64,000 nucleotides of DNA from contig NZ_CP039424.1 of assembly GCF_005877055.1 (NCBI RefSeq), positions 2,232,001 through 2,296,000 of the forward strand, given 5' to 3'. The first letter of the stretch is position 1; each line of letters opens with the position of its first letter. This DNA is from Citricoccus sp. SGAir0253 (GTDB lineage Bacteria; Actinomycetota; Actinomycetes; Actinomycetales; Micrococcaceae). The notes below the pieces were generated by a model. It saw only the letters and a list, made by a program, of their open reading frames with translations. It was not told the origin of the DNA and did not search any database. The position numbers and the translations under genes are program-made. Shown here piece after piece: positions 21,789-43,285 of the stretch.

Positions 21789-22456
21789 GTGCTCTCCCCC
21801 TCCTCCAGCACGGTCAGCACGGCACCGTAGCGCTCGGCGAAGGTGCCCGCGTGGCCGCGGTACATCGGCAGCCCGCGGCCGTTGAGCAGGCCGTCGTGGA
21901 CGGGCACGGCCTGCCGCGGGCGGACGGCCGTGATGAAGTCGACCATCTCCGCGAGCTTGGACCACGGGGCACTCAGCGGGACCAGGAGGGTGTCCGGCGG
22001 CGGGCCGGCGGGCACCACGTAGCTGTCCCCGGGGTGGTAGACGAGCCCGTCCACGAGGTACCCGGTGTTGGCGACCACGGGGATCTGCGGGTGGATCACC
22101 GCGTGCTGGCCGCCCAGGGTGCGCACGGCGAAGCCCGCCGTCTCGAACTCCTCGCCCGGACCGGTGGCGATGACCCGCCCCGCGTCCACGCCCGCCGCGC
22201 CGGCGGCGGAGGCGAGCCGGGCGGCCGCGGCGGCGGGGGCGCGCACCGTGACGGCCGGGTGGGCGGCGAGGTGCGCGAGCACGGGGCCGTCGTCCAGGTG
22301 GTCGGCGTGCTCGTGGGTGACGAGCACGTGCTCCACGCCCTCCAGGGCCGCGGGGACGTCCGTGAAGGTCCCCGGATCGATCACCAGCCGCCGGCCGTCC
22401 TTCTCCAGGCGCACGCACGCGTGGCCGAACTTCGTCAGCGAGATCTGGGAATGCAC
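21776..22456 (-). CDS. MBL-fold metal-dependent hydrolase
   Basis: A 226-residue metallo-beta-lactamase fold protein of the UlaG/UPF0173-like type. The metal-binding motif is THEHADHLDD near residue 49, with GGQHAVIHPQIP and YHPGDSYVVP further on. The substrate is unknown. GTG at 22456 is chosen because TACGCT ends six bases before it and there is no ribosome site. It forms a two-gene unit with the overlapping sulfurtransferase. Confidence 0.88.
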   Translation of the reverse strand: MHSQISLTKFGHACVRLEKDGRRLVIDPGTFTDVPAALEGVEHVLVTHEHADHLDDGPVLAHLAAHPAVTVRAPAAAAARLASAAGAAGVDAGRVIATGPGEEFETAGFAVRTLGGQHAVIHPQIPVVANTGYLVDGLVYHPGDSYVVPAGPPPDTLLVPLSAPWSKLAEMVDFITAVRPRQAVPVHDGLLNGRGLPMYRGHAGTFAERYGAVLTVLEEGESTWIG

Positions 22457-22468
22457 CCGTCCAGCGTA
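22457..22468 (-). promoter_or_regulatory. Leaderless-type promoter of the metallo-hydrolase gene
   Basis: Minus strand: TACGCT (22468-22463), then GGACGG, then GTG. The six-base spacer equals the one before aroA (TATCGT-GGACGG-GTG), even in sequence. Confidence 0.55.
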
Positions 22469-22661
22469 GCCCCGACCGCCACGCCCCGGCAGCACCCCCG
22501 ACGGCCCGGGCGCCCGACGCCCCGGGTCAGGAGCCGGTCGGCCCCCCACCGGGACGTGACCGGGATCCGGTCCGGCCGCGGTCGATCCTCGATGACGGCC
22601 CGGCCAGGGCCAGGCCGGGCGCGAGCGCCCGCGGCCCGGGACCCGGCCCGGCACGCGCTGG

Positions 22662-35609: not shown

Positions 35610-35876
35610 CTAGTGGCCCGCCTCGACCCGCAGCTGGCTGATCCGGGTCATGATGCTCACCTTCAGCGTCTCCGGCGCCTTCTCCGAGCAGCTCCGCCGC
35701 ACCACGGAGCGGATGATGCACTCCAGGTCGTACTCGTGCGCGCAGTCGGGGCACTCCTCGAGGTGACTGCGCACCTCCTCCAGGTCACGGTGCGTCAGCG
35801 CCCCGTCCAGGTACTCGTACAACCGCTGGATGCGGGCGTCCTCACAGTCGCCGATCCTCTGGCAGTCCGCGCTCAT
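35610..35876 (-). CDS. rsrA: Zinc anti-sigma factor RsrA
   Basis: An 88-residue redox-sensitive anti-sigma factor that holds SigR inactive until disulfide stress releases zinc. The zinc anti-sigma motif is His38-x3-Cys42-x2-Cys45 (HLEECPDC), with Cys11 as the extra redox cysteine, the same layout as in Streptomyces RsrA. Its ATG overlaps the sigR stop (ATGA), so the pair is coupled and made in proportion. Confidence 0.94.
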
Positions 35877-36703
35877 CTGCCCGCCTCCTGTCCTTCGTTC
35901 CCGCCGGTGGCGCCGGCATCGGGTTCCGTCGTGGTGGTCTCCCGGGCCGCCGTGGCGGCCTTGCGGGACTGGGTCTTCCGGGGCGCCTTCGCGGGCTTGT
36001 CCTCCACCCGGATGCCGCGGTCGCGCGCGTAATCCGTCAACAGCCCGCGCAGCAGCTTGCGCCCGCGGTGCAGGCGGCTCATCACCGTGCCGATCGGGAT
36101 GTCGAGGATCTCCGCGATCTCCTTGTACGCGAAGCCCTCCACGTCCGCGAAGTACACGGCGAGCCGGAACTCCTCGGGGATGGCCTGCAGGGCGTCCTTG
36201 ACGTCCGAGTCCGGCAGGTGGTCCAGCGCCTCGGTCTCGGCCGAGCGCAGCCCGGACGAGGTGTGCTCGGCGGCCTGGGCCATCTGCCAGTCCTCGACCG
36301 TGTCGGTCGTGGCCTGCTGCGGCTGGCGCTGGCGCTTGCGGTACAGGTTGATGTACGTGTTCGTCAGGATCCGGTACAGCCAGGCCTTGAGGTTCGTGCC
36401 GGGGCGGTACTGGTGGAAGGACGAGTACGCCTTGGTGAACGCCTCCTGCACGAGGTCCTCGGCGTCCTGCGGGTTGCGCGTCATGCGCATCGCGGCGGAG
36501 TACAGCTGGTCCACGTACTCCAGGGCGTCGCGCTCGAAGCGCTCGCGCCGGGCGGCATCGGACTCCGTGTCGAGGTCCACGTCCGGGTCATCGTGGTCGG
36601 CGGGGACCTGGGCGGTGTTGTGCGTTTCCATCGCCGCCCAGTCTACGTCCGCGGGGCCCTCGCGGACGGGGCGCTCGGCGAGGGCGGTCGCGGCGGGGGC
36701 CAT
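35873..36703 (-). CDS. sigR: ECF sigma factor SigR/SigH type, two possible starts
   Basis: An RNA polymerase sigma factor for thiol-oxidative stress. Region 2 includes [20 protein letters not shown] and [13 protein letters not shown]; region 4 includes [24 protein letters not shown]. The C-terminus is a charged tail. There are two credible starts. ATG 36703 (276 residues) has a strong GAGGAAGGA site. ATG 36631 (252 residues) has TAGACT ending eight bases upstream and no ribosome site, so it may be leaderless. Streptomyces makes a long unstable and a short stable SigR from two promoters, and this layout could do the same. It is divergent from aroA and coupled to rsrA. Confidence 0.93.
36640..36645 (-). 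promoter_or_regulatory. Internal -10 box for a short SigR
   Basis: TAGACT (36645-36640, minus strand) followed by GGGCGGCG and ATG at 36631. It lies inside the coding sequence of the long form. Confidence 0.45.
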
Positions 36704-36787: not shown

Positions 36788-36813
36788 AGCAATCCACCCG
36801 GCGCGGATATTCC
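36788..36813 (-). promoter_or_regulatory. Candidate sigma-R promoter of sigR
   Basis: Minus strand: GGAAT (36813-36809), 18 nt, then GCT (36790-36788). The sigma-R consensus is GGAAT-N18/19-GTT, so there is one mismatch in the -10 element. It would start a transcript about 80 nt before the long-form ATG and give positive autoregulation. Confidence 0.5.
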
Positions 36814-41826: not shown

Positions 41827-41924
41827 GGGCACACCTTCGGGCTCGGCGACGGGTTCGCGGGATGTCGAGGGGGTACGACAGCCCAGTCTAGGCGGGCCCG
41901 TCGACGACGCCCGTCAACGACAGC

Positions 41925-41960
41925 GGACCCGGGACACCGCCGAGGCGATGTCCCGGGTCC
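41925..41960 (-). terminator. ssrA terminator
   Basis: GGACCCGGGACA (41925-41936) and its complement (41949-41960) give a 12-bp stem that extends by CGCC/GGCG inside. It starts 11 nt after the tmRNA 3' end. Confidence 0.75.
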
Positions 41961-41971
41961 GACACGGGGAG

Positions 41972-42339
41972 TGGAGATGGCGGGAATTGAACCCGCGTCC
42001 GATGCAGTGTTGTCAGGGCTTCTCCGGGCGCAGTTTGCGCTGGGTGTTACTCGGCCCTGGCTGTCCCGCAAACAGGCAGCCAACCCGGGCCCAGCCGGAT
42101 TGATGTCTCCACCACGACCCCCGGCGAGGGTGGTGGACAGTGGCTATCTAATCGACGCCAGGATCCGGGGCGATAGCATCCCCGGGCTGACGGACTCGTT
42201 CACTGATCAGGCAGCGAGAGCGAAGTCAGTGCGCTTAGATTCGGCACTTATTGGTGTGCAGAGGGCGTTTCCGAGATAACTCTGCATCCTCGGCCCGCTT
42301 CCCCTGTCGCGACGTGCATCGTCGAAACCGATCATCCCC
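41972..42339 (-). ncRNA. ssrA: Transfer-messenger RNA
   Basis: The 368-nt RNA begins GGGGATG and ends CATCTCC plus discriminator A, forming the alanine-like acceptor; CCA is not encoded. The 3' region carries GGGTTCAATTCCC (T arm). The tag reading frame gives A-E-S-K-R-T-D-F-A-L-A-A followed by TGA, starting at a GCC resume codon, a Micrococcaceae-like tag ending in the ALAA degron. It rescues stalled ribosomes with SmpB, encoded just upstream on the same strand. Confidence 0.97.
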
Positions 42340-42410
42340 ATGTTCTGTTGTCAATCAACCGTTCCCTGCGGGTGTCACTGATCCCCCGCCTGGTCCGGAC
42401 TGCCCAGTAT

Positions 42411-42436
42411 AACCGAGACCGGCGCGCGGGTATTCC
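42411..42436 (-). promoter_or_regulatory. Sigma-R type promoter of ssrA
   Basis: Minus strand: GGAAT (42436-42432), exactly 18 nt, GTT (42413-42411), a perfect match to GGAAT-N18-GTT. TATACT (42411-42406) overlaps it and could serve the housekeeping sigma factor. Either would leave a 5' leader of about 60 nt to be cut off. Confidence 0.75.
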
Positions 42437-42497
42437 CCCGTGGCCGGATCGCCCCGACGGCCCCCACGGCCCCGGGGGTCCGGCCGGTCCCGCGGGT

Positions 42498-43004
42498 TCA
42501 GGCGGCGCGGCGGTTGCGCATCCGCATGGCCCGCTGGGCCTCGCGGTTGTCCTGCTTCTCACGCAGGGCCTGGCGCTTGTCGTAGTCCTTCTTGCCCTGG
42601 GCCACGCCGATCTCCACCTTGACCCGGCCGTCGCGGAAGTACAGCTGCAGCGGCACGATCGTGTGGCCGGCCTCCTGGACCTGCCGGGCGATCTTCGTCA
42701 GCTCCTGGCGGTGCAGGAGCAGCTTCCGGCGGCGCCGGGCGGCGTGGTTGGTCCAGGAGCCGTTGAGGTACTCCGGGATGTACACCTGCTCGAGGTACAG
42801 CTCGTTGCCGTAGAACACGGCGAAGCCGTCCACCAGGGAGGCGTGCCCCTCGCGCAGGGACTTCACCTCCGTGCCCATCAGCGAGATCCCCGCCTCGTAG
42901 GTGTCGAGGATGAGGTAGTTGTGGCGGGCCTTGCGGTTGGTCGCGATGACCTGGCGTCCCGCGGCGTCGGTCTTCGCCGACACACCGGCTGTCTTCTTGG
43001 CCAC
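42498..43004 (-). CDS. smpB: SsrA-binding protein SmpB
   Basis: A 168-residue RNA-binding protein that delivers tmRNA to the ribosome. It has [34 protein letters not shown] and the basic C-terminal tail [13 protein letters not shown], all typical. GTG at 43004 has GGAAGGAG upstream. The ssrA gene lies 158 nt downstream with its own promoter, so RNA and protein partners are adjacent. Confidence 0.96.
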
Positions 43005-43285
43005 GGTGCTCCTTCCGGCCCTCGTCGTCGCCGTGGACGTCGTCCACGATCGTCCCCGGTCGTCGCGCGCGGACGTCCCCACGGACGTCCCGCACACGGA
43101 CTTCCCAGTGTACTGCCGCGGTCAAGGCGCCCGCCCGGGCACCGGGACGGGGCGAGCCGTGGGAACGGGGCACCGGCGGCGGGCGGAGGTGCCGCGGACG
43201 GCGACCGCCGCTCCTTGGCGTGCCCGGTGGCGGCGGGTATCTTCGAGCCACCATCACCGGAGGGGGTTCTCGAGGGTGAACAGTC

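Follow-up and report, generated by a model that had tools for sequence, protein, structure and literature searches.

The tmRNA locus and the sigR region

The window (the whole 64-kb stretch of DNA that was analysed) carries a tmRNA gene, ssrA, preceded by smpB, and a sigR and rsrA-like gene pair 5-6 kb from ssrA. The features of these two regions are listed below; the starts of smpB and sigR are of our choosing.

35610..35876, minus: rsrA-like gene for a zinc-binding anti-sigma factor (zf-HC2, H-x3-C-x2-C; PF13490, E 7.7e-10)
35873..36703, minus: sigR (TIGR02947, E 3.2e-108, 359.7 bits against a cut-off of 251.55)
36788..36813, minus: probable autoregulatory SigR site of sigR, GGAAT-N18-GCT, with one mismatch to the consensus (from sequence)
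41971..42339, minus: ssrA, tmRNA with tag AESKRTDFALAA (ARAGORN)
42340..42405, minus: region between the -10 and the mature tmRNA, containing the conserved block AGTCCGGACCAGG (42389-42401)
42406..42411, minus: housekeeping-type -10 TATACT, its first T being shared with GTT (fused)
42411..42413, minus: SigR -10 element GTT (from sequence and congener conservation)
42414..42431, minus: 18-nt spacer, conserved in length and not in sequence (the 8 congeners agree at 3 of 18 positions)
42432..42436, minus: SigR -35 element GGAAT (from sequence; all 5 positions identical across the 8 congeners)
42498..43004, minus: smpB (PRK05422/TIGR00086), upstream of the ssrA promoter

The ssrA gene displays the tRNA-like ends and the tag reading frame of a tmRNA, and Rfam model RF00023 matches it at 41969-42339 (153 bits, E 4.9e-61). 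Upstream of it, GGAAT-N18-GTT occupies positions 42436..42411 of the minus strand, with ATACT following directly and without a gap, and GTT lies 71 nt from the mature ssrA 5' end on the same strand. This agrees with the original prediction, which had placed such a site about 72 nt upstream of ssrA, overlapping a housekeeping TATACT. The site brings together GGAAT, a spacer within the 18-19 nt range and GTT, at promoter distance and in sense orientation, in a genome that encodes both SigR and a redox-type zinc anti-sigma factor, whose redox response is predicted. Since this promoter is located between smpB and ssrA, it serves ssrA and not smpB.

The TATACT hexamer has the TANNNT form of a housekeeping (SigA/HrdB) -10 element. 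No TTGACA-like -35 is found at 16-19 nt from it, nor any TTG-type -35 at a matching distance; GGAAT itself occupies that place. A consensus scan of positions 41850-43100 returned no promoter of the sigma-70 type. Transcription would be expected to start about 7 nt past TATACT (near 42399), giving a leader of about 60 nt that is presumably cut off by RNase P. At the expected start lies the AGTCCGGACCAGG block (42389-42401, minus strand), seen in this form in the genus and as TAGTCCGG more widely. Its conservation nearly equals that of the promoter, and it may act in initiation or in the processing of the leader.

The original prediction had also placed SigR and RsrA 6 kb from ssrA, and both assignments hold, by the TIGR02947 match and by the zf-HC2 protein with its H-x3-C-x2-C motif. 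The sigR gene may begin at ATG 36703 (long form, with 24 additional residues) or at ATG 36631 (short form). Within its frame, a TAGACT (36640-36645, minus strand) lies 8 nt before the second ATG, and the gene looks like the two-promoter, two-isoform design of Streptomyces sigR (PMC4921905).

The nearness of sigR to ssrA carries no weight as evidence for the promoter. In the family of the window, a distance of about 5-20 kb separates the two genes in 20 of 25 genomes; they are farther apart in three (59 kb in G016, 23 kb in G024, 646 kb in G019), and G009 and G021 have them on different contigs. The neighbourhood also persists in three relatives that lack the site (G008, G011, G022), and four site-positive large genomes have sigR and ssrA 1.8-2.4 Mb apart.

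Chance level and conservation of the site

The ssrA site is the only exact GGAAT-N18-GTT match in the window. Dinucleotide shuffles of the window contain 0.18 matches on average, with at least one match in 16 of 100 shuffles; these statistics are only suggestive, and too weak to decide. The genome-wide count that the original prediction had proposed for estimating the chance rate gives 19 matches against 3 for the reversed pattern. The seven sampled congeners hold 22-51 matches each, against 0-3 reversed, and the enrichment is weak in some relatives (47 against 24 in G009, 52 against 23 in G022, 76 against 20 in G015). Variants with GGAAC are less specific: GGAAY-N18/19-GTT gives 84 matches against 32 reversed, and three identical matches are possibly rRNA genes.

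The open reading frames nearest the 19 sites include trxB followed by trxA, clpB (truncated by the end of the fetched locus), dnaK, an MBL-rhodanese protein, an FMN reductase, an AhpD-domain protein, an ErpA/IscA-type protein and a luciferase-like monooxygenase. The thioredoxin and DnaK assignments we take from inspection of the sequences by eye alone. Neighbours of this kind, such as the thioredoxin system and chaperones, are what a SigR regulon is expected to look like, and the presence of trxB-trxA, clpB and dnaK among them therefore points to a SigR regulon in this genome. Several of the 19 sites adjoin no thiol-stress gene (e.g., L003, L006, L010 and L011). When the 3-kb loci surrounding the 19 sites were searched with Rfam, ssrA was the only RNA gene found.

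The same data bear on which sigma factor would read the site. Another ECF sigma factor (SigE- or SigM-like) might recognise GGAAT and GTT, alone or together with SigR. There are four further, weaker matches to the TIGR02947 profile in the genome, and C. glutamicum has promoters that are shared by SigE and SigH (PMC5483222). Against this, only one of the five matching proteins exceeds the TIGR02947 cut-off, and the identical exact motif precedes trxB-trxA, trxB being a SigR target in S. coelicolor, where the SigR motif is GGAAT-N18-19-GTT (PMC9205884). We regard a part for such a factor as quite unlikely. Joint reading with SigR would be compatible with a promoter shared between SigR and the housekeeping enzyme, so that the two judgements are not exclusive.

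Conservation was assessed with three samples of ssrA loci, each represented by 160 nt of upstream sequence. The relatives comprised 39 loci from 38 genomes, G035 being left out as its tmRNA sits at a contig end that leaves no upstream sequence. The sample of the class (Actinomycetes, our own label) drew on the 72 of 148 genomes whose tmRNA start fitted the 5' pattern, and comprised 69 loci from 68 genomes after exclusion of four already sampled; one false tmRNA match (G438b) is counted within the 69. The named loci were 80 regions next to smpB, of which 67 were used and the 13 with no ARAGORN tmRNA inside the fetched DNA were dropped. Named loci and relatives overlap in species, hence the samples are not independent.

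The strict site was present before ssrA in all eight sampled members of the genus, the window included. It occurred in 17 of the 39 loci of relatives (shuffle mean 0.07), in 31 of the 69 of the class sample (0.05) and in 52 of the 67 named loci (0.155), the last figure including L204, which carries a chance GGAAC match as well as a strict site. The antisense strict site was found upstream of ssrA in none of the three samples, and the sense site in none of the flanking 160-nt windows (0/39, 0/69 and 0/67) or of the other 160-nt windows of relatives (0/294). Relaxing the motif to GGAA[TC] with a spacer of 18 or 19 raised the count among relatives to 22 of 39, with a shuffle mean of 0.29 and one match in the 294 other windows. 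A spacer of 18 dominates, with 17, 31 and 52 loci among relatives, class sample and named loci, the runner-up lengths reaching 3, 3 and 5.

Gapless anchoring of the eight congeners left GGAAT fully invariant and GTTAnACT invariant at 7 of 8 positions, against 3 of 18 in the spacer; 2 of the 30 positions upstream of the site and 18 of the 31 downstream were invariant. Among genomes with the tmRNA 5' motif, a pattern combining that motif with the site was found in 5 of 19 inside the class and in 0 of 49 outside it (p 0.001). This pattern allowed a gap of 40-70 nt, too short for the 71 nt of the window, and these counts serve as an inside-outside comparison only.

It is this conservation beyond chance before orthologous ssrA genes, rather than the window statistic, that excludes chance, and it supports reading the ssrA site as a conserved SigR-type promoter element. 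It bears equally on the idea that the promoter is purely a housekeeping one, with GGAAT being fortuitous or serving another purpose. A single match is indeed not rare by the statistics of the window (16 of 100 shuffles). What speaks against it is that GGAAT-N18-GTT stays fixed in many families, although shuffling yields on average under 0.2 matches per set and the housekeeping-type -10 moves between registers. A purely housekeeping promoter is very improbable and, given the conservation, nearly excluded.

The element is not universal. Among the relatives, 15 of 39 loci lack even GGAA[TC]-N18/19-G[TC]T before ssrA, and the strict form is missing from 38 of the 69 class-sample loci. The genomes of those 15 loci do encode the SigR family, over the cut-off in all except G027. 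More broadly, a SigR-family match exceeds the cut-off in 38 of the 39 genomes of relatives, and such a match is found in 68 of the 68 class-sample genomes, over the cut-off in 67. Because SigR is almost universal in the samples, a test of co-occurrence between SigR and the site is without power. A TTG -35 is found in 6 of the 15 loci lacking the site versus 3 of the 24 with it, which is a trend only (p 0.063). The title of Kim et al. 2012 announces that SigR responses are conserved in actinomycetes.

Registers of the housekeeping-type -10

At 90 of the 100 strict ssrA sites, a TANNNT element lies downstream of GTT in one of three registers: at offset 2, where the two are fused into GTTANNNT, at offset 4, or at offset 9-11, one helical turn away. 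TANNNT has a background frequency of 0.0016 per position. Counts for the fused, +4 and one-turn registers are 13, 0 and 2 of 17 sites among relatives, 0, 6 and 23 of 31 in the class sample, and 40, 1 and 5 of 52 in the named loci. Four of the remaining strict sites have TANNNT at another offset and six have none inside 16 nt. GGAAT keeps its 18 nt to GTT as TANNNT shifts, and therefore GGAAT belongs with GTT and not with TANNNT.

The fused form occurs mainly in Micrococcaceae. The one-turn named loci are all of streptomycete type (L178, Streptomyces sp. RPT161; L179-L180, Streptantibioticus; L188, Actinacidiphila; L203, Mangrovactinospora), with TANNNT about 10 nt past GTT, whereas in the Citricoccus window it is fused to GTT. 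The registers also differ in what stands at the -35 distance of TANNNT. In the one-turn class, TTG, CTGG or TGGC is found there, within the SigR spacer, in 21 of 30 distinct sequences; in the fused class, a -35 of these forms at 15-20 nt is found in 0 of 45 distinct sequences. As the -35 place is taken by GGAAT in the fused class, the housekeeping polymerase, if it starts there, works without a -35 of its own. RbpA or CarD might assist the housekeeping polymerase in such a case.

The sequence GGAAT-N18-GTTANNNT occurs 19 times in 13 genomes, against 4 occurrences of the reversed pattern. Thirteen of these are at ssrA, by construction, as the genomes were picked for the fused form there; the informative figure is the six elsewhere. 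One of those six (L224) precedes a transporter-like open reading frame, the reading frames having been read for L224-L226. By Rfam, L224 also contains a c-di-AMP riboswitch, and L227 a tRNA. Among the 19 SigR-type sites of the genome of the window, GTTANNNT is found at ssrA only. The clpB site (L005) is apparently the other of these 19 with TANNNT close downstream (TAGGCT, about one turn past GTT), and there may be a dual promoter at clpB too.

This distribution is relevant to the possibility that the promoter is read by SigR alone, with ATACT helping SigR promoter melting or having some other role, and with basal tmRNA arising from smpB read-through or an unseen promoter. The lack of a TTG, CTGG or TGGC -35 in 45 of 45 distinct fused sequences fits this explanation, as does the consensus scan that found no sigma-70 promoter. 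So do two Micrococcus loci with a SigR site before ssrA and no TANNNT in the usual registers (Micrococcus lylae, L140; Micrococcus sp. EYE_212, L182), where basal ssrA transcription must come from elsewhere or from SigR. Conversely, the restriction of GTTANNNT to ssrA among the 19 genomic sites shows that ATACT is no general SigR preference, and in other lineages TANNNT sits one turn past GTT and often has a -35 of its own. In S. coelicolor, moreover, HrdB occupies ssrA, which belongs to its ChIP-seq set (PMC6344877), and a promoter of its own is said to supply most of the tmRNA (PMC2635970, with reference to a manuscript in preparation). On balance, a promoter used by SigR only is unlikely.

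A probable composite promoter for tmRNA

Based on these findings, we consider it likely that ssrA of the window has a composite promoter, with a basal housekeeping start at TATACT and a SigR start upon disulfide stress. The proposal is built on the two sets of elements, their fixed spacing, their conservation and the surrounding SigR-type regulon sites. From these we infer sigma factor occupancy, a shared start site and induction of ssrA by thiol stress.

In the unstressed cell, housekeeping RNA polymerase would initiate at the TATACT -10 and maintain a basal level of tmRNA. Disulfide stress would oxidise RsrA and free SigR, whose polymerase would then use GGAAT-N18-GTT and start at a nearly identical place. 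With nearly the same start, the short leader would be nearly the same too, and the product would be the same tmRNA in greater amount, with RNase P trimming the leader. More tmRNA could in turn allow more stalled ribosomes to be rescued and more incomplete proteins to be tagged, alongside the thioredoxin and chaperones of the regulon. Judging from the sequence data, oxidative protein damage probably boosts ribosome rescue here as well as in many related bacteria.

A broader model has, in our view, roughly even chances of being right. It holds that a dedicated two-sigma ssrA promoter exists in three discrete registers across many families of the class. Where the elements are fused, with GGAAT as the sole -35 and GTTATACT as a merged -10, the two sigma factors would compete for one start, the housekeeping enzyme working without a -35, probably with RbpA or CarD, and takeover by SigR under disulfide stress would set the amount of tmRNA and not that of SmpB. 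Ribosome rescue would be an ancestral part of the SigR response, and would have been lost from it in some lineages through a return to an ordinary TTG-type promoter.

Parts of this picture are already known from S. coelicolor, namely the motif, the regulon and ssrA as a SigR target. Its SigR/RsrA system shares with the window the GGAAT-N18-19-GTT motif (PMC9205884), the sigma/anti-sigma pair and ssrA as target (PMC4921905). Yoo et al. 2016 (PMC4921905), with reference to Kim et al. 2012, count tmRNA (ssrA) as one of the 'predicted ribosome-associated' SigR regulon members, so that the membership given in the original prediction was right. The same source states that translation-inhibiting antibiotics also induce the regulon. 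The main text of the RIViT-seq study (PMC9205884) does not name ssrA among SigR targets, and its authors say that known targets were missed. The SigH/RshA system of C. glutamicum has a sigma factor of the same family (as a control, it matched over the cut-off) and a GGAA/GTT motif (PMC5483222); it differs in that ssrA was not found as a SigH target in the literature searched. Overlapping two-sigma promoters elsewhere likewise hold two element sets in one stretch of DNA, with sigma-A and sigma-B, or sigma-E and sigma-H, sharing one promoter; a fused SigR/housekeeping -10 conserved at one RNA gene was not found in the sources searched. The architecture at ssrA (the merged SigR/housekeeping -10, the registers and the breadth across the class) is apparently new with respect to the literature searched, which excludes Kim et al. 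2012.

These findings would turn a remark about one Streptomyces species into a testable rule, namely that tmRNA levels in many actinomycetes should vary with the thiol redox state. If true, oxidative protein damage and translation-inhibiting antibiotics would be linked to ribosome rescue. The merged promoter would also be a compact case of two sigma factors at one start site, and its three registers supply natural variants for comparison.

The suggestion that ribosome rescue is a general arm of the thiol-stress response stands in part. The site occurs in many families of the class and precedes the RNA component of the rescue system; the strict form is missing in 38 of 69 class-sample loci, and no strict SigR site was found within 400 nt at smpB in any of 80 loci. 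With smpB lacking a SigR site, the response would raise tmRNA and not its protein partner SmpB. In S. coelicolor, tmRNA fails to accumulate without SmpB (PMC2635970), and the gain could therefore be limited by SmpB.

Among named proteins, the SmpB of the window is closest to that of a Micrococcus sp. MAG (94% identity) and to those of Citricoccus species (89-92%) and of Micrococcus terreus (89%), which places the window near Citricoccus and Micrococcus within the Micrococcaceae. One relative (G017) has two tmRNA genes about 11 kb apart (C1:11430-11816 and 22247-22633; L043 and L058), with partial smpB homology before the first and nearly full homology before the second. This pattern looks as if an element had been inserted or a segment duplicated.
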